This document shows, piece by piece, positions 60 through 52,819 of a stretch of 64,000 nt of DNA. Position 1 is the first letter of the stretch, and every line of letters starts with the position of its first letter. The DNA comes from Gemmatimonadota bacterium (lineage in GTDB: Bacteria > Gemmatimonadota > Gemmatimonadetes > Gemmatimonadales > GWC2-71-9): assembly GCA_040388535.1 (NCBI GenBank), contig JAZKBR010000003.1, positions 1 to 64,000 on the forward strand, in the 5' to 3' direction. The notes under the pieces are model-generated. The model was not told where the DNA came from and searched no databases. It saw only the letters and a list, made by a program, of their open reading frames with translations. A program made the position numbers and the translations under genes.

Positions 60-3000
60 TCAGGAGGCGACCCGACGCTGCAGCGCATGCCACTTCACCA
101 GCAGGGCCGCGAGCGACGTCGAGGCATCGGCGGCGGCCTTGACCGCGGTCTGCGTCGGCGCCGCGTCTGACCCCTGCAGCACCCCCATCACCGAAGTGAG
201 TTCGCCAACGACACGAGACAGGGTCGGAGGCGCATCGAGACCAGCACCGCCACCGCGGCCGCCACTGGTTCCGGCGAGGGCCGCGAGTTCGCGATCGAGG
301 GCATCGACGGCAGGCATTGCCTTGCGAGGGGCAAGCAGGGCCCGTGCAGCGCGAATCTCATCGAGCGCGCCGCGTGCGGTGGTGATCCCGTCGTACATCT
401 GCAACGAGAGCGTGCTCTGCTGGCGCAAGGCGAGCGCCCGCGTCTTCACGCGCGGATCCATCTTCACCGCCAGCGGTTGCGTCAGCGTCAGGCCACTGGC
501 AGTGAGCCGCACCCGATATTGCCCCGGCGGTGCCCACGGCCCCAGCGGATCAGGCGCGGTATTGTGTGGCACGGCCGACATCGGATACGAGAAGGTGGTC
601 GTCCCCGCAGGTGGGCCGTAGTGCAGGTCCCACACGAAGCGGTGCAACCCGGCACTCGCGCCCAGCAGCAAGGTCGGACGCATCCAGTACGCTGGCGTGT
701 TCCCCTGGTCGGCGATGGTGAGTGCCGTGTCCGTGCTGACGTAGTGCCGCACTACGCGGCCGGTGGCGTCGAGGATATCGAGCGTCACCGGGCCGGTTGC
801 GGGACTCTTGAGCCAGTAGTCGATGATCGCGCCGTCCGGCGGATTCTCGCCGGTCGGCTCATCGGGCGGGAGTGGGGTATCGGTGTTCATGCTCCAGCGC
901 ACTCGCCATGCATCGGCCGGGGCAAAGAGATGACCAGTTGATGCCTGCATCGTCGCCGTGGCCTGACGCAACGGCGTCACATCGTCGAGGATCCAGAAAC
1001 CGCGACCGTGGGTGCCGATCACCAGGTCGTTCTCCTTCACGACGATATCGCGAATGGACGTGATCGGCAGATTGTTCCGCAGCGAGAACCAGTGATCGCC
1101 ATCATCGAGCGATGCGTACACAGTGCGTTCCGTGGCGGCGTAGAGCAGGCCCTTCCGTTTCGGATCCTCGCGTACCGCGTTGACGGTTTCTCCTGCAGGA
1201 ATCCCGGTGGTGATCTCTGTCCATGTCGCCCCACCGTCGTGTGTGCGGTAGATATGCGGCGTGAGATCATCGAGCCGAATGGTGTTGACGGCGGCGTAGG
1301 CGGTCGCGGCGTCGCGCCGTCCGGCGTCGATAACCGATACCTTGGCCCAGGCCGTGAGTGCTGGCGGAGTCACATCCTTCCAGCTCAGGCCACCGTTGCG
1401 CGTCACGTGGATGAGGCCATCATCGGTCCCGGCCCAGAGCGTCCGTGCGTCCAGATACGATGGCGCGAGGGTGTAGACCACACCGCGCTGGGTGACCTTC
1501 GCCCCTGGCGTGCTGCGATAGATGCCGACACTCGCTGGCACCTCCCAGCTCTTGCGCGTGAGGTCGGGCGAGATCCGGGCCCAGCTCGAGCCACCGTTGA
1601 CCGTTTTCCAGACGACGTTCTGCGCGAAATAGAGCGCGTGCGGATCCACCGGTGAGAAGAGAACCGGGGCCGTGCGCACCGCGCGGAAGGCGCCGCCACG
1701 GCCGGTAGAGGGACCCACCTGCTGCGTCTGGCCAGTGGTACGGTCGTAGCGGGAAACCTTGCCGCCGAAGACGATGTCGGGATTCAACGGGTCCGGCGCC
1801 ACGTAGCCGTATTCCTCGACGCCGACCGGGTGCCACTCACGAAAGGTGATCCGGCCATCATTGCCGCGGCTCGCCACGCACGCGGAGCCGCTCTCCTGCT
1901 GCCCGCCGCAAACACGATACGGGAAGGCGTTGTCGGTCGAGACGTGATAGAACTGCGCCGTGGGCTGGTTGTACCACGAGCTCCAGCTCTCGCCGCCATT
2001 GGGTGTGACCACCGCGCCCTGATCGGACGCAATGATGATGATGTCGGGATTGTTCGGGTTGATCCAGATCCGCTGGTAGTCATCGCCTCCGGGCGCGCCA
2101 CGGAAGGCAGCAAAGCTCTTGCCGCCGTCCATCGACTTCCACGCGACGATACTCGCCGTAAAGATGATGTCGGGATTGTTCGGGTGCACCTTGATTTCCG
2201 CCATATCCGAACCGCGCGAAACCACGCGCTGATCCTCGGTCACTCGGACCCAGCTTTCGCCGGCGTCGTCGGAGCGATAGAGCCCCGGGTTCCGCGTCGC
2301 ATCGACCGAGGCATACATCCGCTTCGGATTGCTCGGTGCGATGGCGATCCCGATACGACCCAGTCCGTCCGCCGCAAAGGTCGGCAGGCCCCGCGTGAGT
2401 GGCCGCCAGGTCGTACCACCATCCGTCGACTTGAACATGCCGCTGTTGGCACCGTTCCAGGCCGCATTCTCCCACGGGCCCTGACGTGCCTCCCAGAGCA
2501 CGGCAAATACGGTATTCGCGTCAGTCGGATCGAAGGCAAGATCGACCCCGCCGGTGTTCTCGTCCTTCCCGAGCACCTTGCTGAACGATGCGCCGCCATC
2601 GAGCGAGCGGTAGATCCCGCGCTCGGCGTTGGGCCCGTAGGGATGGCCGAGCACCGCGACGAAGAGTCGGTCAGGATTGCGCGGGTCGATGATGATCTGG
2701 GCGATCTGCTGGCCGTCGCGCAGGCCGAGATGGGTCCAGTGCTTTCCGGCGTCGACCGACTTGTACATCCCGTCGCCCGTCGACAGATCGGGACGCTGCA
2801 GCCCCTCACCACTGCCGACATAGATGATGTCCGGATTGGAGGGTGCCACAGCGATGGCACCGATCGATCCAGTGGGTTGATCATCAAAGATCGGCTTCCA
2901 GGTAATGCCGTAGTCGGTGCTCTTCCACACCCCGCCGTTGGTGGCGCCGATATAGAAGGTATTGGGCTGCGAAGGGACACCCACCGCCGACTTGGTTCGC

Positions 3001-3137
3001 CCGCCCCGGAACGGCCCGATCATCCGCCAGCGCAAGGCTGCGAATTGCGATCCGTCGATTTGTGCGACTGCGGTTGAGGCGGCTCCGAGGAACAGGCAGG
3101 CGAGCGCGAGCAGCGACCGACGACTGGGCAGCAACAT
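60..3137 (-). CDS. Secreted VPS10/BNR beta-propeller protein (sialidase/glycosyl hydrolase-like)
   Basis: A 1025-residue protein with a clear N-terminal signal peptide (basic MLLPSRR start, Leu/Ala core, cleavage near AVAQ). Residues about 30-730 hold many Asp-box style repeats (SxDGGxxW, such as STDYGITW, SVDAGKHW, SLDGGASF, STDGGTTW, SMDGGKSF). These are typical of the VPS10/sortilin and BNR propeller families often annotated as exo-alpha-sialidase or glycosyl hydrolase. The C-terminal 280 residues are a separate beta-rich region with a Gly/Ala-rich tail. It is probably exported or on the cell surface. The family is expanded in Gemmatimonadota and Acidobacteriota and its substrate is rarely known, so I do not assign an enzyme activity. 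The gene stands alone between two copies of a 53-bp direct repeat. Confidence 0.9.
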   Translation of the reverse strand: MLLPSRRSLLALACLFLGAASTAVAQIDGSQFAALRWRMIGPFRGGRTKSAVGVPSQPNTFYIGATNGGVWKSTDYGITWKPIFDDQPTGSIGAIAVAPSNPDIIYVGSGEGLQRPDLSTGDGMYKSVDAGKHWTHLGLRDGQQIAQIIIDPRNPDRLFVAVLGHPYGPNAERGIYRSLDGGASFSKVLGKDENTGGVDLAFDPTDANTVFAVLWEARQGPWENAAWNGANSGMFKSTDGGTTWRPLTRGLPTFAADGLGRIGIAIAPSNPKRMYASVDATRNPGLYRSDDAGESWVRVTEDQRVVSRGSDMAEIKVHPNNPDIIFTASIVAWKSMDGGKSFAAFRGAPGGDDYQRIWINPNNPDIIIIASDQGAVVTPNGGESWSSWYNQPTAQFYHVSTDNAFPYRVCGGQQESGSACVASRGNDGRITFREWHPVGVEEYGYVAPDPLNPDIVFGGKVSRYDRTTGQTQQVGPSTGRGGAFRAVRTAPVLFSPVDPHALYFAQNVVWKTVNGGSSWARISPDLTRKSWEVPASVGIYRSTPGAKVTQRGVVYTLAPSYLDARTLWAGTDDGLIHVTRNGGLSWKDVTPPALTAWAKVSVIDAGRRDAATAYAAVNTIRLDDLTPHIYRTHDGGATWTEITTGIPAGETVNAVREDPKRKGLLYAATERTVYASLDDGDHWFSLRNNLPITSIRDIVVKENDLVIGTHGRGFWILDDVTPLRQATATMQASTGHLFAPADAWRVRWSMNTDTPLPPDEPTGENPPDGAIIDYWLKSPATGPVTLDILDATGRVVRHYVSTDTALTIADQGNTPAYWMRPTLLLGASAGLHRFVWDLHYGPPAGTTTFSYPMSAVPHNTAPDPLGPWAPPGQYRVRLTASGLTLTQPLAVKMDPRVKTRALALRQQSTLSLQMYDGITTARGALDEIRAARALLAPRKAMPAVDALDRELAALAGTSGGRGGGAGLDAPPTLSRVVGELTSVMGVLQGSDAAPTQTAVKAAADASTSLAALLVKWHALQRRVAS

Positions 3138-30427: not shown

Positions 30428-32461
30428 CTACTTCGCGAGCTCCCCAATCGACCCGGCCAGCATGTGCGCCTTGGTCTGATCGACGGCCTTCGTCGCATCG
30501 CTGTGCAGCTGGGTTGCCAGTGCGCTCAGCGCGGTCTTGCGAGCGCTGCCCGACATCTTCTCGGCGCTCGCGAGTGCCGCGCGCGTCGAGGCGATCTTGT
30601 CGGACGAGAGGCCGTTGTTCCGCTCAAGCTGATCGAGGTAGGCGCGGCTCAGCGAGAAGGAGGCCGGCCAGACGAACTGCGGCTGGCCCTGCGCGTTCAG
30701 GTAGTCGAGGTGCACCGACTTGGCCGCATCGATCTCGTTCTTGCTGATCAGCGCGCTCGGCGTCAGCTCGAAGATGTCGAGCCCGCGGCCGATTTCCGAC
30801 GACACGATCGACCCGTTGTACCAGTACACCGACCACGAGCCGGCGTTGCCCTGCCGGGTGCCGTCGATCGGGCCGCGGTCGAAGAAGGCGATTTCCTTCG
30901 CGTGGGCGACGTCGCTCCAGTCGAATACGGAAATGCCGCCCTGGTACCACGCCTGCACCATCACGTCACGACCCGGGATCGGGATCATCGAGCCGTTGTG
31001 GGCCACGCAGTTCTCGAGCGTGGTCTGGGCCGCCGGCATCTTGTAGTAGCTCTGCATCTGCAGCTTGCGATTGCGGATGTTGAAGAGCGCGTCGGCGCCC
31101 CACTCCATCTTGTCCGTCGCGCGGCACTTCGGCTGGCCACCGCCGCCCCACTCGTCGGAGAAGAGCATCTTGCTGCCGTCATTGCTGAACGTCGCCGAAT
31201 GCCAGTAGGAGAAGTTCGAGTCGGCCGCCGCATCGATGCGCACCGGATGCGCCGGATCGCGGATGTCGAGCAGCAGGCCGTAGCCGCCGCAGGCACCGCC
31301 GGCCAGCCCGATCGCCGGGTAGACCGTGATGTCGTGGCACTGATCGGGGCCGGTCGGCGCGCGACGCGGCGCCCCCGGGCGCGGTGCGCCGGTCATCGCG
31401 GCAATCATGTTCGGCAGCCCCGCGCGGAGCGCGGCACTGTCGGCGCCGGTCGGCGCGCCGGAACCGCCACGCGCCTTGACGATGCTGTCGAGCATCGGGC
31501 GAGTGAACTGGGCCGGGAGCACCTGCTCCACGCCGCCGAAGGTGGCGGTGAAGGCACCCGACTTCTTGGCAGCGGCGAGGGCCGTCGCACGAGCAGCGGC
31601 ATCAGCCGGTGCTTCGCCGTGAGTCGGCGGCGCCGCGAGGTCATTGAAGATGCGCGGCGACGAAACGATCGCAGCCTGCTCGGGATGCGCGAGCGGCACC
31701 TTGATCACTTCGATGCGGAAGTGAGCGGAGTTGGGATCTTCGCTAGGCGCCAGGTTGGAGCAGCCCGCGAGTTCATCGGCCGAGCGAACGCCGGAAGAGC
31801 CCGAGATGTAGACGTAGACATTTTCCTTGTCGTTCGGATCGACCAGCACCGTGTGGGTATGCGAGCCACGGCAGGTCTGCACGTTGCCGACATTCTTCGG
31901 CTTGGTGATATCGGTGATGTCGAAGATGCGAATGCCGCGGAGGCGATCCTTGCTGACCGGCGCGGGAACACCCTGGGCGCCGCAGTCGATACGACCCGTG
32001 AGGCCCTCACCCGAGACGAACAGCAGATTGCCATACACCGAGACATCGCTCTGCGAGGCCGGGCAGAAGTAGGCCGTCTTCAGCGTCGGCTTGGCGGTGT
32101 TCGCGATGTCCCAGATCTGGTAGCCGCTGTAGCTCCCCTGGATGGCGAGCGTGCCCTTGAAGGCCAGGTCGGAGTTGGTCGCGCCGATGAACTGGTCGCT
32201 CGGCGGCGTGTTCGAGACCAGGCGCATGTTCCACGCGGCCTCACCAGCCGGCGAACCGATCACCATCTTCGTGCTGTCCTTGCTCCAGCGAACCATCGTC
32301 CCGGGGCGGAGGCCGACGCGCGGATCCGGCGAAGGCGCCGACATCGACATCGAGCCGCCTTGCGAGGGAGCAGGCGTGGTGCCCGCAGTCGAGGACGACG
32401 AAGCGCACGCGGCGAGTGCGAGCGCTCCGGTCGCGAGCGATGCTCTGTACAGGAGGGTCAT
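30428..32461 (-). CDS. LVIVD-repeat lipoprotein (beta-propeller)
   Basis: A 677-residue lipoprotein (MTLLYRASLATGALALAAC, lipobox LAAC). The mature protein has propeller-type repeats of the LVIVD kind (GYQIWDIANTAKP, GIRIFDITDITKP, GGISVFDWSDVAHA, GRGLDIFELT). A Cys-containing linker (GGACGGYG) and His-containing sites (SHTHTVLV, YWHSATF) could bind metal. The C-terminal 90 residues are helical. It probably sits on the outer-membrane or periplasmic face; the partner is unknown. The ATG at 32461 has GGAAG nearby. The DUF305 gene lies 50 bp upstream on the same strand. Confidence 0.88.
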   Translation of the reverse strand: MTLLYRASLATGALALAACASSSSTAGTTPAPSQGGSMSMSAPSPDPRVGLRPGTMVRWSKDSTKMVIGSPAGEAAWNMRLVSNTPPSDQFIGATNSDLAFKGTLAIQGSYSGYQIWDIANTAKPTLKTAYFCPASQSDVSVYGNLLFVSGEGLTGRIDCGAQGVPAPVSKDRLRGIRIFDITDITKPKNVGNVQTCRGSHTHTVLVDPNDKENVYVYISGSSGVRSADELAGCSNLAPSEDPNSAHFRIEVIKVPLAHPEQAAIVSSPRIFNDLAAPPTHGEAPADAAARATALAAAKKSGAFTATFGGVEQVLPAQFTRPMLDSIVKARGGSGAPTGADSAALRAGLPNMIAAMTGAPRPGAPRRAPTGPDQCHDITVYPAIGLAGGACGGYGLLLDIRDPAHPVRIDAAADSNFSYWHSATFSNDGSKMLFSDEWGGGGQPKCRATDKMEWGADALFNIRNRKLQMQSYYKMPAAQTTLENCVAHNGSMIPIPGRDVMVQAWYQGGISVFDWSDVAHAKEIAFFDRGPIDGTRQGNAGSWSVYWYNGSIVSSEIGRGLDIFELTPSALISKNEIDAAKSVHLDYLNAQGQPQFVWPASFSLSRAYLDQLERNNGLSSDKIASTRAALASAEKMSGSARKTALSALATQLHSDATKAVDQTKAHMLAGSIGELAK

Positions 32462-32511
32462 GGTGTACTTCCGGGAAAGGGACGGGGTCAGGCAGCGGGG
32501 GCGAACGGGCA

Positions 32512-33168
32512 TCAGGGCTTCGCGGACGTGGCCGGCAATGCGTCGAGCATCTTGTTCATCCGGTCGATCTCGGAACCCTGGTCGGCACTCACATCGTTGG
32601 CAAACTTGAACACCACTTCATCCTGCGCGGCACCGTAACTGCCGAAGAGCTTCTCGACCATGGTGAGCGCGCCGGTGTGGTGCTGGATCATGAAGGTGAG
32701 GAAGCGACGGTCGAATTCCACTCCGCGCGAAGCATCGAGCTGCTTCATCTGTTCTTCGGTGAGCATCCCGGGCATCAGCATCACGTGGTCCATGCCATCC
32801 ATCTTCATCTTCATCCCCATCGTGCCCGCATCGGGGACCGGCAGATTGTGATCGCGCAGCCAGCGCTGCATCGTCACGATCTCGTCTTCCTGGGCATTGA
32901 TGATGCGCGCCGCCATGATCTGGAGCGAAGGACTCGCCCCGTGCGTGGGCGCCCACTTCGCCATCACGATCGCCTGGGAGTGGTGACCGATCATCCCGGA
33001 CATGAATTCCACATCGGGTGCTGCGGGCGCGCGTGCGGCGCTCGCTCCGATGGGTCGGGTCGACGGCGCGGGTGCTGACGCCGGAGTGGTTCCGTAGGAA
33101 TGACTGCAGCTGGAAAGGAAGACGCCGAGGGCGAGAATCACACTCGCCCGGGAAGTATCGGTACGCAT
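32512..33168 (-). CDS. DUF305 lipoprotein, probable metal-related
   Basis: A 218-residue lipoprotein (MRTDTSRASVILALGVFLSSC). Two ferritin-like DUF305 halves carry the motifs MSGMIGHHSQAIVMA and MIQHHTGALTMVE (HH pairs), separated by a Met-rich stretch (GTMGMKMKMDGMDHVMLMPGM). Met and His richness suggests copper or another soft metal as ligand (inference). The ATG at 33168 follows GGAGG. It lies upstream of the LVIVD lipoprotein gene and may be cotranscribed with it. Confidence 0.93.
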   Translation of the reverse strand: MRTDTSRASVILALGVFLSSCSHSYGTTPASAPAPSTRPIGASAARAPAAPDVEFMSGMIGHHSQAIVMAKWAPTHGASPSLQIMAARIINAQEDEIVTMQRWLRDHNLPVPDAGTMGMKMKMDGMDHVMLMPGMLTEEQMKQLDASRGVEFDRRFLTFMIQHHTGALTMVEKLFGSYGAAQDEVVFKFANDVSADQGSEIDRMNKMLDALPATSAKP

Positions 33169-42021: not shown

Positions 42022-42095
42022 CGCTGACATCGGGACCCTTCCGCAAAGGCCGGGTGGTGGCCATCCTTGATTTCGTCCATCACCCGGAGAATGCA

Positions 42096-43211
42096 ATGAG
42101 CGGAGTCCGTGTCCTGGTGGGAACCCGGAAGGGCGCCTTTGTCCTGACGGCCGATGGCAAGCGCGACAAATGGCACGTCGCCGGGCCGCACTTTCCTGGC
42201 TGGGAGGCCTATCACATCAAGGGCTCCCCGGTGAACCCGGATCGAATCTATGCCTCGCAGACCTCGGCGTGGTTCGGGCAGCTGATCCAGCGTTCCGATG
42301 ATGGCGGCGTTACCTGGAATCCGGTCGGCAACACGTTCGCCTACGACGGCGACCCCGGCACCCATCAATGGTACGACGGCACCCCGCATCCGTGGGAGTT
42401 CAAGCGCGTGTGGCATCTCGAGCCCTCGCTCACCGACCCCGACACCGTCTACGCCGGGGTCGAGGATGCGGCGCTCTTCAAGTCGACCGACGGTGGCGAG
42501 AACTGGACCGAACTCTCGGGGCTGCGCCACCACGGCTCCGGACCGAAGTGGGCGCCCGGGGCGGGCGGAATGTGCCTCCACACCATCATCCTCGACCCGA
42601 CCAATCCCGACCGCATCTACATCGCGATCTCGGCAGCCGGAGCGTTTCGCACCGATGATGGCGGCAAGACGTGGAAGGCGATCACCAAGGGACTCAGCTC
42701 GCTGTACATCCCTGACCCGACGGCCGAGGTGGGGCACTGCGTGCACCATATCGCGATGCATCCCTCGCGCCCCGACGTGCTCTTCATGCAGAAGCACTGG
42801 GACGTCATGCGCAGCGACAACGCCGGCGACCTCTGGCACGAGATCAGCGGCAATCTGCCCACTGATTTCGGATTCGTGATCGATGTCCACGCGCACGAGC
42901 CCGAGACGATTTACGTGGTGCCGATCAAGAGTGACGCCGAGCACTTTCCGCTCGATGGCAAGCTGCAGGTCTTCCGCAGCCGGAGCGGCGGCAACGAGTG
43001 GGAGGCACTGACGAAGGGGTTGCCGCAGTCGGACTGCTACGTCAACGTGCTGCGTGATGCGATGGCGGTCGATTCGCTCGAGGGGTGCGGGGTCTACTTC
43101 GGCACGACGGGTGGCCAGGTCTACGCCTCGAAGGATGGCGGCGATCACTGGGAGGCGATCGTGCGCGACTTGCCGCCGGTGCTCTCGATCGAAGTCCAGA
43201 CGCTCGGATGA
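42096..43211 (+). CDS. BNR/VPS10-type beta-propeller (exo-alpha-sialidase-like)
   Basis: A 371-residue cytoplasmic-looking propeller without a signal peptide. Asp-box repeats are plain: [34 protein letters not shown] and ASKDGGDHW. There is also a His-rich loop ([15 protein letters not shown]). It differs from the large secreted VPS10 protein at 60-3137 in lacking a signal and the extra C-terminal region. The ATG at 42096 has GGAGA 6 nt upstream. Its stop overlaps the start of the following ubiquitin-like gene by 4 nt (ATGA). Confidence 0.9.
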
Positions 43212-45472: not shown

Positions 45473-46030
45473 TTACTTCTTGAGCAACTTCTCGCCAGCC
45501 TCTTCGTGCGCGCGCAGCATCTTCTGCCGATCGGCGAGGAAGATCCGGACCTCGCTCCGCTGCGCCTTGGCCGGCAGGGCGGCCACGTCCTTCTTGAGCA
45601 AGGCATCGTGGGCATCGATCGTGTAGCGCAGGTACGCCTGGTCAAAGGCCACGCCGGTGAGCAGGTTGAGCTTGTCCATCGCCGCTTTCTGCGCCCGCGC
45701 CATCATCGAATCCGATGGCAGCACCCGCACCACATTCAGCGCCTTGGCGAGGTTGGCGCCGTCGGTGAGCGACTTCTGATGATCCTTGAGCACCGTGGCG
45801 GCATAGCCCTTCACCGCGCCGTTGCTCCCCTTCGTCGTCGCCAGCGTCGACGCCTCGATCATGTTGGCATCAGCAGCGTTGATGGTGCCGAGTACCACCG
45901 CATCGCCGGTGCGCGGCATCACCTTGGCCTGCTGCACCGAATTCACCGGGCGCCCTTCCGTCACCGCGGGGGGCGGCGTGGGTGCCTGGGTCTGCATCAT
46001 CATCAGAATGGTCATCATTCCAGCCAGCAT
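45473..46030 (-). CDS. DUF4142 family exported protein
   Basis: A 185-residue protein. The start MLAGMMTILMMMQTQAPT looks like a short, Met-rich signal peptide. The mature part matches DUF4142, a ferritin-like four-helix bundle (ADANMIEASTLATTKGSNGAVKGYAATV, DHQKSLTDGANL, AYLRYTIDAHDALLKK), with His near the usual positions. The function is unknown; often periplasmic and stress related. The ATG at 46030 has GAGG 5 nt upstream. It lies 15 bp after the phosphoesterase gene, at the end of the overlapping operon that begins at 51643. Confidence 0.9.
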   Translation of the reverse strand: MLAGMMTILMMMQTQAPTPPPAVTEGRPVNSVQQAKVMPRTGDAVVLGTINAADANMIEASTLATTKGSNGAVKGYAATVLKDHQKSLTDGANLAKALNVVRVLPSDSMMARAQKAAMDKLNLLTGVAFDQAYLRYTIDAHDALLKKDVAALPAKAQRSEVRIFLADRQKMLRAHEEAGEKLLKK

Positions 46031-46045
46031 GGCACACCTCGTCCT

Positions 46046-47044
46046 TCAAGGAGACTGCTTGGGAGCTGCCGTGGAGTCCTGGTGGCACTTGCCGCCTGCC
46101 GGATCCCAGACACGGCCGTTGACATCGATGAATGCGGAACGGAACTCGCCTTTGCCGAGCGTGAGCTTGAGGACACCGAAATAGCCCTGGACGCGCGCCG
46201 CGCTCGTGGGCCGCGGGTTATCACGGAAGCCGCGCAAATCGCCGCCTCCGGTTCCGACGACAAACTCCACCATGCCCTTGGTCGAATCGATGACGCCGAA
46301 AGCCGTCTGCGGATGGAAGCGCTCGTAATCGTGGTCGTGACCATTGAGGATCAGGTCGACACCGCCGTCCTGCAGCAATTGCCACATCGGGCGCACCGAA
46401 GGAGAATCACCGTGCCAGCCGGTGCTGAAGAGCGGCTGGTGCCAGTAGGCCATCGAGCAGAACTTCTGCGGCCCCTTCAATTCATTCCGGACCCAATCCT
46501 CCTGCGCCTTCCGCTCGGCATCGCTGAATGACGGGTTCACGATGATCTCGCCGTTGATCACGATCACGTGCCACTCACCCACGTCGTAGCTGTAGTAGCC
46601 CTTCTTGGACGAGCCGGCCTTGTTGCCGAAGTACTGGTAGTACGGCGCCGCACCGACGGTCTGGTGTTCGTGGTTGCCCGGCGTCGGGTGGATCTTCTTC
46701 AGGATCCGCTTGGTGGAGTCCCCCCACGACGGCGCGAAGCAGAGTGCGAAGTTGCTCGCCGAGCCCTCCGGGTAGGCATTGTCGCCGAGGGTGAAGACCT
46801 CGTCGGAGGCCACCTTCGCAGCACTGTCGGCCTTGAGGACACTGTCGACGATGCGGGCGGTTTGTTCATCGCCATCGGTGCCGCAGACGGCGATGTCGCC
46901 GACCCCGATCATCACCGAGGCCCCCGACAGTGCGACCTGCTCGGCGGTAGCGGTGGCCGGTGCCGGCGTGATGTTCACCGGAATCTTGCAGGCGAGCACC
47001 ACGATGGTGCCGAGAATGACAAGTGTGACGACGCGCGATTTCAT
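46046..47044 (-). CDS. Metallophosphoesterase lipoprotein (calcineurin/purple acid phosphatase-like)
   Basis: A 332-residue lipoprotein (MKSRVVTLVILGTIVVLAC). All metal-site motifs of the calcineurin-like fold are present: GVGDIAVCGT (Asp), TLGDNAYPEG, PTPGNHEHQ, WHQPLF and NGHDHDYERF. It should hydrolyse phosphomonoesters or diesters on the outer face of a membrane. It overlaps the upstream Omp85-like gene by 4 nt. In some Bacteroidota I recall a phosphoesterase fused to this type of barrel protein; here they are separate coupled genes. Confidence 0.95.
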   Translation of the reverse strand: MKSRVVTLVILGTIVVLACKIPVNITPAPATATAEQVALSGASVMIGVGDIAVCGTDGDEQTARIVDSVLKADSAAKVASDEVFTLGDNAYPEGSASNFALCFAPSWGDSTKRILKKIHPTPGNHEHQTVGAAPYYQYFGNKAGSSKKGYYSYDVGEWHVIVINGEIIVNPSFSDAERKAQEDWVRNELKGPQKFCSMAYWHQPLFSTGWHGDSPSVRPMWQLLQDGGVDLILNGHDHDYERFHPQTAFGVIDSTKGMVEFVVGTGGGDLRGFRDNPRPTSAARVQGYFGVLKLTLGKGEFRSAFIDVNGRVWDPAGGKCHQDSTAAPKQSP

Positions 47045-49656
47045 GGAAACATCCCTTCAGGAACGATGCGAAGCGTGATGACACCGGCGTGGCCGGCATC
47101 ATTCGCGCGCATCACCCTGACATCTAGTGTGAGATCGTGGAACCCGACCCAGAACCCGGCGCCGAGGGCATTGTGCCAGCCGAAGGGAGAATTCCCCTTC
47201 ACATAGACGCGTCCCGCGTCGGCGGTGGCGAGCAGACCGGTATTCACCGGCAACAGGAGGTTGAACGTGAACAACGGAATGCGGAGTTCGGCGGTGCCAT
47301 AGAGCGAGGCATCGCCGGCGTAGCGCTGCAAGTCCAGTGTGCGGACATCATTGCGCCCGCCGATGAAGGCCGACTCCTGGAAGGGGAATTCGCCGAACAC
47401 CTTCTTGCCGCCAAGGCGCAGGCCCAGGTAGGGATGCAACGGCAGCGGTAGCGTGACGTACTGCGCCACCAGCGCACTGATGTTGCCGAATGAGTGCTCG
47501 ACATCCCACACCGCGGGGAAGTAGCTCGCGCTCAGGTCGATAATATTGCCGCGCTTGGCGTGGCGCGTCGGCACGCGGTTGTCGTGATAGAGCGACCAGC
47601 GCACGCCCGCCTCGCCGAACTTGCCGGCGCCATAGGGCAGCGATGCCGAGATGAATCTCCCAGGCGTGCTGTCGGTGATGGAGTACTGGGCTACCGGTCC
47701 GATGCCCATCGTGGTGGACTTGCTGAGCTCGATGGCCAGCGCCGGCTGGAACAGCCACTGCCGCTGATTCAGGGCGTAGAAATCAGTGCGCGGAGCCGAG
47801 GTTCCGATCACGATCCCATCGCTCTGGGGCGAAAGATTCCCCTGACCGTGATAGTTGAGCATCTCGAGGTCCGACACCCGGGCGAGGGTCGTGATATGGA
47901 GCGCCGAACTCTCGAAGCGCTTGTCGTGATTGAGCGCGACCGCAAAGCCCTTGGCCTTGAACGAGTAGCGGCCCTCGAGGGCGATCCTGCTGCTGTACGG
48001 TTCGTCCCGAAAGCCATAGCTCGTGCGGGCAAAGCCCAGGCGCGGCGCAACACCGAAATCGTGGTTGAGGCCGAGCCCTGCCGTCGGGCCGCTCTTGCCA
48101 CCGTAATCCTTGTGCGGCTCGACCGGGCCGCCCGCCTGGTCCACCAGCGGTCGGCGATTGAACAGGGTGTCAGGGCCGTAGGAGACGCCCGTGGTGGCGC
48201 CGGAGTCGTAAAACCGGGTCGGGTGATGATTGCCCCCGACGACCGAGGAATCCACCAGCAGGTTGGTGCCGTTGCCGCCGATGACGCGCAGCGCGATGCT
48301 CGACCTCGCGGTGCCGCGCACCACGGCGGCATCATCGCCGCCATGGAGGTAGAGCCGCAGCTGCGTGGTCTCGGCCGCATCGAAGCGGCGGTAGAAATAG
48401 CGCTGGCCCGTGGCGTCGTCGAGCTCGACATCGACGTGACGTTCATCGACCCTGGTCACGATGGCCCGGTCGGCCGCGTCCGTCGCATGAATGTCGACGA
48501 CGCCAGCGAGGTAGGCGTACAGGCGATCGGCCTCGGCCGGGAGCGAATCACGTCGCACGCGCAGCCGGCCACGAAGCGCCGGCACGCTGGCGTGATATTC
48601 CGCCGGCATCGCGGCAATCGCGTTGTCGATGGCCGCGTCACTGAGCTGCCGCGTCGTCGCCTGCGCGACCGAATCCCAGGTGCGCTTGTCGAGCCCGGCC
48701 AGCAGCCGGCGGTCGAACTGGAGCGAATTCCAGGTCAGGCCGCGGAGCGATGGATAGCCGCTGTCGAAGACCATCAGGTTGGCGGACATCTTCCGACTGA
48801 TACTCGGCAGCAAGCCGCGCACCGAGATGAAGGCCTTGTCGTAGTCGCGCGAGATCGGCCGCCATGCAGCGCCGGTGGCGTCCTTGGCACGCGCCCACTT
48901 CCACTGCCCCGGATGCCGATCCCAGTTGTTCACGAGCATGTCGACGAGGCGTGCCGCGAGGAACGCCGTGGTGTCGATCCGCGTCGCCGGGTCGCGGTCC
49001 AGTCGCTGCAGCAGCGTGTCGCTGTCGATCACATCGATCGGACCGGGGAATCCCTCCGCGCCGCCAGCGTGCTTGCCGGGCACACGCGCGAAGCCGCCAA
49101 CCCGGTGCGCGAACTCCTTGCGGAACTTGCCGAGCGCCGGATCATCGGGCATCGCAACGAGCACGGGCGTGTCGTGGTGCACCCCGACGGCTTCGAGCAA
49201 TCGTGGCACGACAAGGTTCGCCGCCGGATGACTGTTGCTGATCTGATCCTGCGCCGTCCGGCGGGCCACGCCGACATCCGCCATGCCACCGGGGACCTCG
49301 ACATGATCCTTGTCGAAGGAGCGGAAGACGAACTCCTCACCCGCCGGATTGGAGAACTGCAACGACTTGGTCTGCTTGCCGCCGCCGGCCTTTTCTGGCG
49401 TCAGTCCGCCCTCCGCGTGCTGCAGATCGAGCACCGGAATGCGCACCGGCTGGGTCCAGAGATCCCGGTAGGTACCACCCAGGAGGAACCGATGGAAGCC
49501 GCCGGCCTGATAGTGCTTGCCGACCGCCACGGTGACGCTGTCGTGGCTGCGAAGGTCGAGCGCCGTGCCCTGGGCGCGGAGTGCGAGAGGCGCGCCGAGC
49601 AGCAGCGCGAACGGCATCAGGGGGAAATGGCGGAAGCGCACGCGAAAGCTCCTCAT
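47041..49656 (-). CDS. Kinase-like domain fused to an Omp85/BamA-type barrel
   Basis: An 871-residue exported protein (signal peptide to about residue 28). The N-terminal half resembles an atypical kinase fold of the HipA/CotH/Fam20C kind: a possible nucleotide-strand FVFRSFDKD (109-117), a catalytic-loop-like NNWDRHPGQW (243-252) and a metal-site-like PISRDYDKAF (267-276). Residues from about 540 form a BamA/surface-antigen-like barrel, with Gly-aromatic strands and GVRWSLYHDN, YLGLRLGGKKVF, LLPVNTGLLATADAGRVY. The kinase reading is inference from these motifs. Both ends overlap neighbours by 4 nt (ATGA), coupling it to the propeller lipoprotein upstream and the phosphoesterase downstream. 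Confidence 0.85.
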   Translation of the reverse strand: MRSFRVRFRHFPLMPFALLLGAPLALRAQGTALDLRSHDSVTVAVGKHYQAGGFHRFLLGGTYRDLWTQPVRIPVLDLQHAEGGLTPEKAGGGKQTKSLQFSNPAGEEFVFRSFDKDHVEVPGGMADVGVARRTAQDQISNSHPAANLVVPRLLEAVGVHHDTPVLVAMPDDPALGKFRKEFAHRVGGFARVPGKHAGGAEGFPGPIDVIDSDTLLQRLDRDPATRIDTTAFLAARLVDMLVNNWDRHPGQWKWARAKDATGAAWRPISRDYDKAFISVRGLLPSISRKMSANLMVFDSGYPSLRGLTWNSLQFDRRLLAGLDKRTWDSVAQATTRQLSDAAIDNAIAAMPAEYHASVPALRGRLRVRRDSLPAEADRLYAYLAGVVDIHATDAADRAIVTRVDERHVDVELDDATGQRYFYRRFDAAETTQLRLYLHGGDDAAVVRGTARSSIALRVIGGNGTNLLVDSSVVGGNHHPTRFYDSGATTGVSYGPDTLFNRRPLVDQAGGPVEPHKDYGGKSGPTAGLGLNHDFGVAPRLGFARTSYGFRDEPYSSRIALEGRYSFKAKGFAVALNHDKRFESSALHITTLARVSDLEMLNYHGQGNLSPQSDGIVIGTSAPRTDFYALNQRQWLFQPALAIELSKSTTMGIGPVAQYSITDSTPGRFISASLPYGAGKFGEAGVRWSLYHDNRVPTRHAKRGNIIDLSASYFPAVWDVEHSFGNISALVAQYVTLPLPLHPYLGLRLGGKKVFGEFPFQESAFIGGRNDVRTLDLQRYAGDASLYGTAELRIPLFTFNLLLPVNTGLLATADAGRVYVKGNSPFGWHNALGAGFWVGFHDLTLDVRVMRANDAGHAGVITLRIVPEGMFP

Positions 49657-50558
49657 GGCCGGCGATAGAGGGTGAGGCGAGCGGCATCCTGCTTCGCTTC
49701 ATCGCCAATGATGAGAATGTGGTCGCTGGTGATGGCAAGTCCCTCGGCCTGTTCGTGCCCCTTGGGCAGCTCGCGCACCGATACCACGGCGCCAGCCGGG
49801 GTCACCTCGAGCAGGCCCTTCTCGATCGAGCCCACCAGGAGGTAATTGCCGTTGGCCGGATCGATGGCGATGTCGGAAGGATGAAAAGTTTTCCAACCCA
49901 CTGATTCGGTCACCTCGGACATCGGGATGCGGAGGGCATTCGCCTTCTGGGCGGCGACGTCACCGATGCTGTCCACGGGCACCCGGAAGATCACCACGGC
50001 ATCGCGCAGCGCCTTGTCGTGCACCGTCTTGCACGCGAGGAGCAGGGTGCGGTGCGCGGCGTCATACGTCATCGACTCGAATTCGCACTCGGCGCCGAGG
50101 CCGGTGTTGGTCATGGTGAACGGCACGGCGGTCTTGTCGGCACCTTCGAGGAAGCGGAAGAGCTTACCGTCACTCGTCAGCAACAACACCGTGTCGCCGA
50201 TGGTCGTGATCGCCTCGAAATCACCCTGCACGCGCGGCGTGCCGACCGTGAACTTCTTCACGATCAGGCCGCTCTTGTAATCGATCTCGAATACCCGACC
50301 CTGCTCATCGCCGTGCGCGAGCAGCCGCCCATTGCCGGTGAGCGCCAGCCCGGACAGCTCCTTGAGCTGCTCGGGCATAATCCAGAGGGCGATTGGCTTG
50401 TCGGGGTTGCCGGTGCTGTCCGCCAGGGCGCTGTCGATTCTCGCCCGGCGTGCCGTCATGACGGCGCTGTCGCCGGTGGCGGCACCGGCGCTCGCACCGT
50501 GCCCGCACGCCGCGAGGAGCGCCAGCCCAAGCAAGCCACCGACCTTCACGACACTCAC
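49653..50558 (-). CDS. SdiA-regulated/phytase-like beta-propeller lipoprotein
   Basis: A 301-residue lipoprotein (VKVGGLLGLALLAACGHG). After a linker, residues 60-300 form a propeller with ELSGLALTGNGRLLAHGDEQGRVFEIDY, GDFEAITTIGDTVLLLTSDGKLF and PSDIAIDPANGNYLLVGS. These are hallmarks of SdiA-regulated and 3-phytase-type propellers; acidic residues in the blades may bind Ca2+ and a phosphate ester. The start is a GTG at 50558 overlapping the DUF4956 stop (GTGA). Its stop overlaps the start of the kinase-like barrel gene. Confidence 0.88.
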   Translation of the reverse strand: MSVVKVGGLLGLALLAACGHGASAGAATGDSAVMTARRARIDSALADSTGNPDKPIALWIMPEQLKELSGLALTGNGRLLAHGDEQGRVFEIDYKSGLIVKKFTVGTPRVQGDFEAITTIGDTVLLLTSDGKLFRFLEGADKTAVPFTMTNTGLGAECEFESMTYDAAHRTLLLACKTVHDKALRDAVVIFRVPVDSIGDVAAQKANALRIPMSEVTESVGWKTFHPSDIAIDPANGNYLLVGSIEKGLLEVTPAGAVVSVRELPKGHEQAEGLAITSDHILIIGDEAKQDAARLTLYRRP

Positions 50559-51643
50559 TTGGCGGCCTGCTTTTCGTGCGATGCGGCTTCGCCGACTTCG
50601 AGGTCGACCGCATTCACCGCATCGCCTGCCCCTTCACGAATCGCCGTGAGCATCTTGTCGCGCGTGACGCTCTTCCGGATCCCCACCAGGTAGTACAGTT
50701 CGGCTGGCTTGCCTTCGGTGGTGATCACCTGATCGAGGCGCCAGCGGCGGGCGAGGACGTTGAGGACGAGCTCGATCCGCTTCTGCGCTTCGGCCACGGA
50801 TTCGGTCGTGACCGTGAGCACGGCATTGAAGCGGGGCTTCTTCTGTGTGGGCCCCAGCGCCTTGCTGACGCGATCGAAGCGCTTGGCGAGGACGGCGGCC
50901 TTCTTGGGGGAGAGCGCCAGAATCAGGTCGCGGTCGGGCACGCCCAGTGCAGTATCGCGTTCGGCGAGATCGCCCAGCGGCTCGGACCACTGTGAGGCCG
51001 CGGTTGGTTCGAGCACGTTTCGGCCGAAATCGTACCGCCAGATCATCAATACGACGAAGTTGAATGTCACCGAGAGGACCGCAGCAACAATCAGCGACTG
51101 CACCCCGGCGGCGAGGCCGACGCCGATGCCGAGGAAGATGTAGACCATGTCGCGGACGTCCTGCGTCGTGGTCCGGAAGCGCAACCCCGCCACGATCCCG
51201 CCCAGCGAGAAGGCGAGTGCGAGGGAGGTCCGCACCACGAGCACGATCCCCGCGACGACCAGTGGCAGGATCACGAGGGTTTGCACGACGCTCTGGGAGA
51301 AGTCGCGTGCGCGTCGCGCCGACATGAAGACCCAGCTCACCGGCAGCATCAGGGCGAGGGTGCTGAACATCACGATGAGGGTGGTGATGACCAGGTCGAG
51401 TCCACCCTCGACCGCGACACTCCCGCCTTTCACCGCGGGAGCGAGTCCATCCGCAAGGAGATCGGGATTCCCGGTCAGCGCGGCGACGTGCCCTCCACCG
51501 AAGAGGAGTGCCGCCGCCCCGGGCACGAAATAGCAGACCACGAAGATCACGGCGCCGAGGAAGAGATAGTATGCGACCAGACGCTGGATCGGTTTCGCTG
51601 ACCCGAGGGTGAGCGCATCCATCATCCGCTTGAAGAATCCCAT
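50555..51643 (-). CDS. DUF4956 membrane protein
   Basis: A 362-residue protein with about five membrane helices (residues 25-210), including the DUF4956 core SLGGIVAGLRFRTTTQDVRDMVYIFLGIGVGLAAGV. The C-terminal 150 residues are a cytoplasmic ferredoxin-like domain (VLTVTTESVAEAQKRIELVLN). From what I know, DUF4956 often co-occurs with VTC-type polyphosphate polymerase and CotH-kinase genes, which fits the phosphate-related neighbours here. First gene of the 4-nt-overlap operon. A fold-back sequence (51662-51720) lies just upstream of the ATG. Confidence 0.93.
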   Translation of the reverse strand: MGFFKRMMDALTLGSAKPIQRLVAYYLFLGAVIFVVCYFVPGAAALLFGGGHVAALTGNPDLLADGLAPAVKGGSVAVEGGLDLVITTLIVMFSTLALMLPVSWVFMSARRARDFSQSVVQTLVILPLVVAGIVLVVRTSLALAFSLGGIVAGLRFRTTTQDVRDMVYIFLGIGVGLAAGVQSLIVAAVLSVTFNFVVLMIWRYDFGRNVLEPTAASQWSEPLGDLAERDTALGVPDRDLILALSPKKAAVLAKRFDRVSKALGPTQKKPRFNAVLTVTTESVAEAQKRIELVLNVLARRWRLDQVITTEGKPAELYYLVGIRKSVTRDKMLTAIREGAGDAVNAVDLEVGEAASHEKQAAK

Positions 51644-51805: not shown

Positions 51806-52819
51806 TCACTGTGCGCGAAAGACCCCCACTGCCCCCTTCGTCGCATCCGCGAAGGCGTGGCTCACGAACGGATACAGGCCTGCCTCGACCAGTCGCAGTT
51901 CGAAGATGGCGCCCCCACCCACCGGCACATTCCAGGTCTGCATCCCTTCAAACGGCCGCCCGAATCCATCGGCGATGACACGATCGAAGATCCCGCCGAC
52001 CACGTGGAAGGATGAGATGCGATTCGGCCCCGCGTTTACGACATAGAGCCGGATCGGCTTGTTCAGGGCGGCCGGAATGGGATGCGTTGCGTAGCGGGAG
52101 GCGACGCCATTGAACACGACGTAGTCGGGCGAGGCGTTGAGGACCTTGTCCCAGTTCATCCCGTGAATCGAATCGGCTCCCGCCGCCGGCCCGAGATAGA
52201 ACTCGCTCTGCACCAGCACGAACTCCTGCGCCGGGGAGCGCGCCACACGTGGGTCGATGATCAACGCGCCATACATCCCGTTGGCAATATGACTCGCGAC
52301 CGGTGCCGTGCCGCAGTGGTACATGAACACGCCAGGGACCCGTGGCACGAACCGGAATTGCACGCTGTCGTGGGGCATCACATTGCGATAGGCACGATCC
52401 GGTGCCAGCTCGGCCGCATGAAAATCGATGGAGTGGGGCATCGGCGCGCCGTTGACGAGCGTGACATCGACGGTGTCCCCGACGGTGAAGCGCATTGTGG
52501 GGCCCGGGACAATGGAATCGAAGGTCCAGGCATCGTACATCACGCCCGGTGCAATCTCGTGGCGGATATGCACGGTCACGAGCCGCACGGTGCGGTGCCG
52601 GCTCGCGGTGCGAGCCGGTGCGTCGGCTGCACGATCGGGGGAGGTGCTGGGTGTCCCGATCGGGGCCTCCCCGTGCGAGACGGCGGCCGGGGAGGCCGCC
52701 GGGGCCGCCGGGGCCGCCGCCGGCTTCGTGCTCGCGGGCGGGGCGGCTGGAGTCGTGCGTGGGGTATCGCAGGCGCTGATGGTGAGCGTGGCGATCAGGA
52801 GCAGCGAGATCTGACGCAT
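51806..52819 (-). CDS. Two-domain multicopper oxidase, copper nitrite reductase (NirK)-like
   Basis: A 337-residue lipoprotein-like protein (MRQISLLLIATLTISAC) with an Ala/Pro-rich linker up to about residue 70. Two cupredoxin domains follow. NirK-type motifs: PHSIDFHAAE (two His, plus the catalytic-type Asp; residues about 128-137), MYHCGTAP with the Type 1 Cu Cys and His, and a possible Met in HIANGMYG. The second domain has SSFHVVGGIFD and FVSHAF, which could complete the Type 2 site. It might reduce nitrite to NO; other two-domain laccase-like oxidases remain possible. Confidence 0.85.
   Translation of the reverse strand: MRQISLLLIATLTISACDTPRTTPAAPPASTKPAAAPAAPAASPAAVSHGEAPIGTPSTSPDRAADAPARTASRHRTVRLVTVHIRHEIAPGVMYDAWTFDSIVPGPTMRFTVGDTVDVTLVNGAPMPHSIDFHAAELAPDRAYRNVMPHDSVQFRFVPRVPGVFMYHCGTAPVASHIANGMYGALIIDPRVARSPAQEFVLVQSEFYLGPAAGADSIHGMNWDKVLNASPDYVVFNGVASRYATHPIPAALNKPIRLYVVNAGPNRISSFHVVGGIFDRVIADGFGRPFEGMQTWNVPVGGGAIFELRLVEAGLYPFVSHAFADATKGAVGVFRAQ

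Follow-up and report, generated by a model that had tools for sequence, protein, structure and literature searches.

What can be the work of four overlapping genes whose predicted products span a bacterial envelope from an inner-membrane protein to an outer-membrane barrel with a kinase-like domain? The question arises from an operon in a Gemmatimonadota bacterium (GWC2-71-9, assembly GCA_040388535.1), found in a stretch of 64,000 nt (contig JAZKBR010000003.1, positions 1-64,000; hereafter the window). The operon and the gene that follows it comprise these features:

50555..51643, minus strand: DUF4956 protein, predicted inner-membrane, 362 aa (PF16316, 1.1e-10)
49653..50558, minus strand: beta-propeller protein of the SdiA-regulated family, predicted lipoprotein (PF06977, 3.7e-5, above the cut-off)
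47041..49656, minus strand: kinase-like Omp85 barrel protein, 871 aa (AF2 model, Foldseek matches)
48829..48930, minus strand: catalytic-loop-like motif within the kinase-like domain, residues 243-276 (alignment of 69 sequences)
46046..47044, minus strand: purple-acid-phosphatase-like phosphoesterase, predicted lipoprotein (PF00149, 1.3e-12; complete motifs)
45473..46030, minus strand: DUF4142 protein at the downstream end of the gene row (PF13628, 6.7e-20)

Our analysis indicates that the four-gene set, from DUF4956 to the phosphoesterase, is probably a previously undescribed system for making, moving or using polyphosphate across both envelope membranes. The set is widely conserved and recurs beside genes that make or cut polyphosphate, and a polyphosphate system is therefore the probable interpretation. 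In the version that we favour, and that we hold to be somewhat better than an even bet, the operon is the Gemmatimonadota form of a conserved polyphosphate-linked envelope module, in which DUF4956 would serve the polyphosphate synthase and the other parts would handle the polymer.

The layout of the locus agrees with an earlier note on this DNA, which had described five open reading frames (ORFs), exact 4-nt overlaps (GTGA at 50555-50558, ATGA at 49653-49656 and ATGA at 47041-47044) and a gap of 15 bp between the phosphoesterase and DUF4142 genes. GC is strongly enriched at the third codon position in all five ORFs (0.83-0.87), which are therefore taken as coding. Scanning for promoters and terminators gave signal little above chance.

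Conservation and polyphosphate neighbours

The barrel protein is present in 79 of 249 sampled Gemmatimonadota genomes. Within the genus, the order DUF4956-propeller-barrel-phosphoesterase is kept with overlapping or closely spaced genes at loci L052 and L053 (overlaps and gaps of -4/-10/-4 and -4/+3/-4, respectively), while L054 keeps the order without the propeller. The same order is found in the sister family at L058, L059, L061 and L062 (-4/-4 in L059 and L061). A scan of GTDB genomes returned at least 585 stretches encoding relatives of the barrel protein, the best 80 of which come from Gemmatimonadota, Acidobacteriota, KSB1, Latescibacterota, Poribacteria, Ignavibacteria, Chlorobi, Bacteroidota and others. 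The earlier note would have regarded a gene order restricted to this strain as a refutation; instead, the order is widely conserved. Among 113 de-duplicated barrel loci, DUF4956 is a neighbour in 33, the propeller in 42 and a phosphoesterase, nearby or fused, in 60. The phosphoesterase-barrel fusion that the note mentioned for Bacteroidota was recovered as well: in 32 of 33 loci of that phylum, the barrel protein is longer by about 400 residues at its N-terminus, and Pfam identifies the extension as Metallophos in all three loci checked. Outside Bacteroidota, a stand-alone phosphoesterase of the type fused there lies directly before the barrel gene. Apparent fusions in Gemmatimonadota proved mostly to be overshoot of the upstream reading frame, and Pfam does not confirm the sole candidate (L065) that retains a phosphoesterase profile match. 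DUF4142, which the note had included in the module, does follow the operon here and lies near it in L052, L053 and L054, but as a conserved neighbour it is almost confined to the genus. In those three loci DUF4142 flanks the operon on both sides, and the window has the downstream gene only.

The link between the module and polyphosphate is well supported by gene neighbourhoods. In unsupervised clustering of neighbouring genes, PPK1 shared first place among the extra families with an HD-PycTM protein (29 loci each), and other clustered neighbours of the barrel gene included SixA (9 loci), PAP2 and Ppx/GppA. Across the 68 Gemmatimonadota genomes that bear the barrel, PPK1 is no more than 8 kb away from 26 of 91 barrel genes, compared with about 0.6 expected from genome size; DUF4956 is near 42 of the 91, and both PPK1 and DUF4956 are near 19. 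PPK1 and SixA are also found nearby in Ignavibacteria and Bacteroidota barrel loci, and at sister-family locus L073 an operon arranged as in the window is followed 53 bp on by Ppx/GppA, facing a convergent PPK1. On the barrel tree, PPK1 linkage requires at least 19 state changes and occurs inside the 16-row clade of the window protein.

A large share of the linked PPK1 is of a second, longer type that carries a CYTH-like domain at its N-terminus; in at least 18 genomes this type lies next to the barrel gene or nearly so. In the three examples below the CYTH domain is above the Pfam cut-off, and its profile matches triphosphatase 5a60 at 1.5e-5. Two further loci, from two Gemmatimonadota genera, encode DUF4956 and a complete PPK1 in a single ORF, both families scoring above the Pfam cut-off:

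L069, 3472-6684, minus strand: CYTH-PPK1
L082, 11472-14645, plus strand: CYTH-PPK1
L174, 9358-12552, minus strand: CYTH-PPK1
L183, 6957-9878, minus strand: DUF4956-PPK1 fusion, 973 aa
L191, 5926-8721, minus strand: DUF4956-PPK1 fusion, 931 aa

These fusions point to DUF4956 as a membrane partner of polyphosphate synthesis. The association of DUF4956 with polyphosphate polymerases and CotH, stated in the earlier note, is borne out by published work (PMC7112168), and Gemmatimonas is among the listed polyphosphate accumulators (PMC7888455). VTC was considered as the missing polymerase and rejected, its domain being present in only 1 of 69 genomes (L192; genome G147, contig C18:4500-5787), directly beside a DUF4956 gene; searches for VTC and for DUF4956 both match in the same three control genomes. 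Two further observations concern these neighbours. The CYTH-PPK1 proteins of L069, L082 and L174 have a further stretch of about 200 residues that no Pfam family matches and that looks Nudix-like by eye only, and the gene combining an HD domain with a PycTM (Pycsar-type) membrane domain lies near the barrel gene, often together with PPK1 and SixA, in Bacteroidota and Ignavibacteria loci (for example L145:6086-7468, minus strand).

The barrel protein and its partners

In a model built with AlphaFold2 (AF2) from 69 sequences (per-residue confidence, pLDDT, 86.9; predicted template-modelling score, pTM, 0.85), the barrel protein consists of a signal peptide, a kinase-like domain (residues ~80-390), an all-beta region (~386-500) and a 16-stranded barrel (520-865). 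Residues ~502-865 match TamA/BamA at Z ~26 (Foldseek, VIA), and the family profile matches BamA chains in the PDB at ~1e-6, with weak Pfam scores; the C-terminal 16-stranded barrel places the protein in the Omp85 superfamily. POTRA gave no match with Pfam models, no dedicated domain model having been searched, and the region before the barrel is taken up by the kinase-like and all-beta parts.

The N-terminal domain of the model is a kinase-like fold, as the earlier note had supposed and had treated as decisive for its proposal. Searches of the PDB with the whole model returned barrels only and so speak neither for nor against the domain; since barrels filled those lists, we turned to a viral Foldseek library that holds few of them. 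Its best two matches to the whole model are phage proteins (E 1.5e-6 over 328 columns and 4.0e-6 over 334 columns), the second annotated with a PI3/4-kinase catalytic domain (prob 1.00), and both are placed on the N-terminal domain from alignment length and annotation rather than from aligned ranges. The motif N243-W-W/D246-R-H-P-G-Q251-W to R-D271-Y-D273 resembles a kinase catalytic loop. Across the 69 sequences, which come from several phyla, D239, R247, Q251, W252, W254 and D271 are invariant and D244, D246, H248 and D273 nearly so (D246, H248 and D273 at 90% or more), a pattern that, in the alignment, fits the 'DRH' loop of HipA/CtkA/PI4K-type kinases. Of the kinase-site positions, D246 and D271/D273 are conserved; the position of the metal-binding Asn, assigned by motif and not by structure superposition, is the invariant Gln251, and with Gln in place of the usual loop Asn kinase activity is not assured. 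Against the PDB, a profile of the domain matches the kinase CtkA best, over the catalytic loop but at an E of 0.09, with other rows weaker and unrelated. CotH is the commonest weak Pfam match (3 of 51 members, best 0.0025), but no member reaches the cut-off of PF08757 and the window protein lacks even a weak match. Compared by hhalign with CotH and HipA, each represented by a thin alignment, the domain gave no significant score and barely exceeded controls, and phmmer searches of the PDB with the barrel protein and the propeller each gave no match.

The DUF4956 protein scores 42 bits against its family model (PF16316, cut-off 30.6). It has membrane helices, an invariant F156-R157 motif, positively charged conserved residues in its core (alignment) and a C-terminal ferredoxin/ACT-like domain (271-356); AF2 pLDDT is 72 overall and >90 for most of 271-351, with low confidence in the membrane part. 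An MgtC-type assignment was considered and set aside, the C-terminal domain matching MgtC at Z 9.0 in a tie with many ferredoxin-like folds. The propeller, which has a GTG start and the lipobox LLAAC, passes the PF06977 cut-off (23.5 bits, cut-off 21) and falls short of that of PF13449 (15 bits, cut-off 27.6). The 'phytase-like propeller' of the earlier note is therefore a propeller, but more precisely one of the SdiA-regulated (YjiK-type) family. Bacteroidota relatives include a match to PF06977 at 2.7e-12 and a PF13449 score of 31.6 bits, over that family's cut-off; seven acidic residues (E67, D84, D113, E115, E161, E272, E287) are invariant in 35 relatives. In the phosphoesterase, the five metal-site motifs of the purple-acid-phosphatase type (GD49, LGDNxY86, GNHE123, WHxP201, GHDH235) confirm the complete site read earlier, and phmmer matches purple acid phosphatases at 7e-6. 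The N-terminus carries the lipobox VVLAC. Taken together, the N-terminal sequences suggest that propeller and phosphoesterase are lipoproteins and that the barrel protein has a signal peptide.

Elsewhere in the window, just upstream of the operon, a copper-oxidase protein (51806-52819, minus strand) resembles Cu nitrite reductase; its match to TIGR02376 (3.2e-50) is nevertheless under that family's cut-off. Two Sortilin-Vps10/BNR-repeat proteins are encoded at 60-3137 (minus strand, 1025 aa) and 42054-43211 (plus strand, 385 aa). An ORF of 694 aa (30428-32512, minus strand) has no Pfam match at 0.001 and, given a second long ORF on the opposite side, may be non-coding.

Possible roles and their alternatives

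From these parts we infer where each component sits, how and in which direction the polymer moves, which substrate is used and what is catalysed, as follows. PPK1 would make polyphosphate in the cytosol, and DUF4956, as its inner-membrane partner, would probably pass the product into the periplasm, by analogy with eukaryotic VTC. There, the kinase-like domain of the outer-membrane barrel protein may bind polyphosphate or transfer its phosphate, the tethered phosphoesterase may trim or remove phosphate, and the propeller lipoprotein may bind substrate or couple the parts, with the Omp85 barrel as a candidate exit or anchoring point for the polymer. Since the periplasm should lack ATP, polyphosphate is an attractive phosphate donor in that compartment. 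A full trans-envelope machine, in which cytosolic polyphosphate passes through DUF4956 to become the periplasmic donor for the kinase-like barrel (or is exported to the surface) and the phosphoesterase acts as off-switch, is a speculative extension that we think unlikely as a whole.

Several points weigh against a polyphosphate module. We know of no Omp85 barrel that moves polyphosphate, and shared Pho regulation could instead cause the genes to cluster. In Gemmatimonadota, 65 of the 91 barrel loci have no PPK1 nearby, and DUF4956 was found near the barrel in none of the Bacteroidota, Ignavibacteria and Chlorobi loci examined. The counts also overstate independence, since many loci are related by phylogeny and those of one genus are not independent. 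In the window genome itself, PPK1 lies on another contig, unlinked to the operon, and neither a VTC catalytic domain nor a CYTH extension on PPK1 was found; the polyphosphate link of this operon therefore runs through family membership and sister-family orthologues and is not direct.

The regulatory argument belongs to an alternative in which the locus is a phosphate-scavenging cluster: phosphoesterase and propeller would hydrolyse extracellular organic phosphates, the barrel would help to secrete or anchor these two proteins, and PPK1 and PPX would be co-located only through phosphate-starvation regulation. A purple-acid-phosphatase-like enzyme and neighbours such as PPK1, PPX, SixA and PAP2 are what such a cluster might hold, but it leaves unexplained both the DUF4956-PPK1 fusions and CYTH-PPK1 beside the barrel, as well as the conserved kinase-like domain, and we consider it improbable. 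Quite unlikely, in our view, is an envelope kinase-phosphatase pair that acts on an envelope protein, lipid or glycan and uses polyphosphate at most as donor. The kinase-like fold with conserved D246, R247, Q251 and D271, the weak CotH-like hints and the frequent pairing of barrel and phosphoesterase fit such a pair, whereas the lack of expected periplasmic ATP, the Gln at the metal-binding Asn position and a locus without a conserved substrate gene do not. The earlier note had proposed something close to it, a target in the envelope or among secreted molecules that gains or loses phosphate groups; this proposal is partly supported, but it missed the best-supported connection, which is to polyphosphate (PPK1, CYTH-PPK1, exopolyphosphatase and the DUF4956-PPK1 fusions). 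Very unlikely is an ordinary Omp85 assembly or translocation factor with regulatory or inactive kinase-like and phosphoesterase domains, for although the barrel is closest to TamA/BamA and assembly or quality-control roles were proposed for the 'Metallo' and 'noNterm' subfamilies in an earlier study (PMC4104836), no POTRA was detected with the Pfam models, active-site motifs are conserved across phyla and polyphosphate genes are neighbours.

Known systems and significance

Our preferred polyphosphate module shares features with several described systems. The eukaryotic VTC complex couples polyphosphate synthesis to translocation and likewise combines a domain of the tunnel type (CYTH/VTC) with a membrane partner for that synthesis, but the outer-membrane part has no counterpart there, and DUF4956 is at most a putative channel. 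HipA/CtkA/CotH/PI4K-like kinases share a DxxxxNxDRHxxN-like catalytic loop and, after it, an Asp motif, and the predicted fold matches; the barrel protein differs in similarity below family cut-offs, Gln for Asn and a predicted outer-membrane location. In Gram-positive pel loci, CotH, a polyphosphate polymerase and DUF4956 form a contiguous accessory set whose function is not settled (PMC7112168), the same trio of roles as here (kinase-like protein, polyphosphate polymerase and DUF4956). In our module, however, an outer-membrane barrel protein contains the kinase-like domain, and PPK1, often as CYTH-PPK1, stands in place of VTC; a polymerase adjoining DUF4956 is absent from the locus in the window and occurs, as PPK1, in relatives. 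The Omp85 protein PlpD (PMC11116518) likewise has an enzyme domain on the periplasmic side of its barrel, its patatin domain staying periplasmic, but PlpD is a phospholipase with a POTRA domain, whereas the window protein is kinase-like. In architecture the barrel protein overlaps with two Omp85 subfamilies, 'noNterm' and 'Metallo', the latter a barrel with N-terminal PF00149, which the study calls a metalloprotease (Heinz and Lithgow 2014, PMC4104836). This PF00149-barrel layout recurs in the Bacteroidota proteins related to that of the window, which itself encodes the phosphoesterase separately; the available text on 'Metallo' and 'noNterm' proteins mentions neither a kinase-like domain nor a propeller, DUF4956 or a connection to polyphosphate. 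Literature searches limited to open-licence papers found no published link between polyphosphate and Omp85.

To our knowledge, the placement of polyphosphate outside the inner membrane of bacteria is not settled, nor, as far as we know, are kinases expected to work in an ATP-free periplasm. The module offers concrete genes for both questions. It also hints, with the direct PPK1 fusions, that DUF4956 acts as a membrane partner for polyphosphate synthases, and the 'metalloprotease' subfamily of Omp85 may be re-read as a phosphoesterase-plus-kinase-like protein. With members of the family in many phyla, cultivable Bacteroidota among them, experimental tests of these roles are practical.

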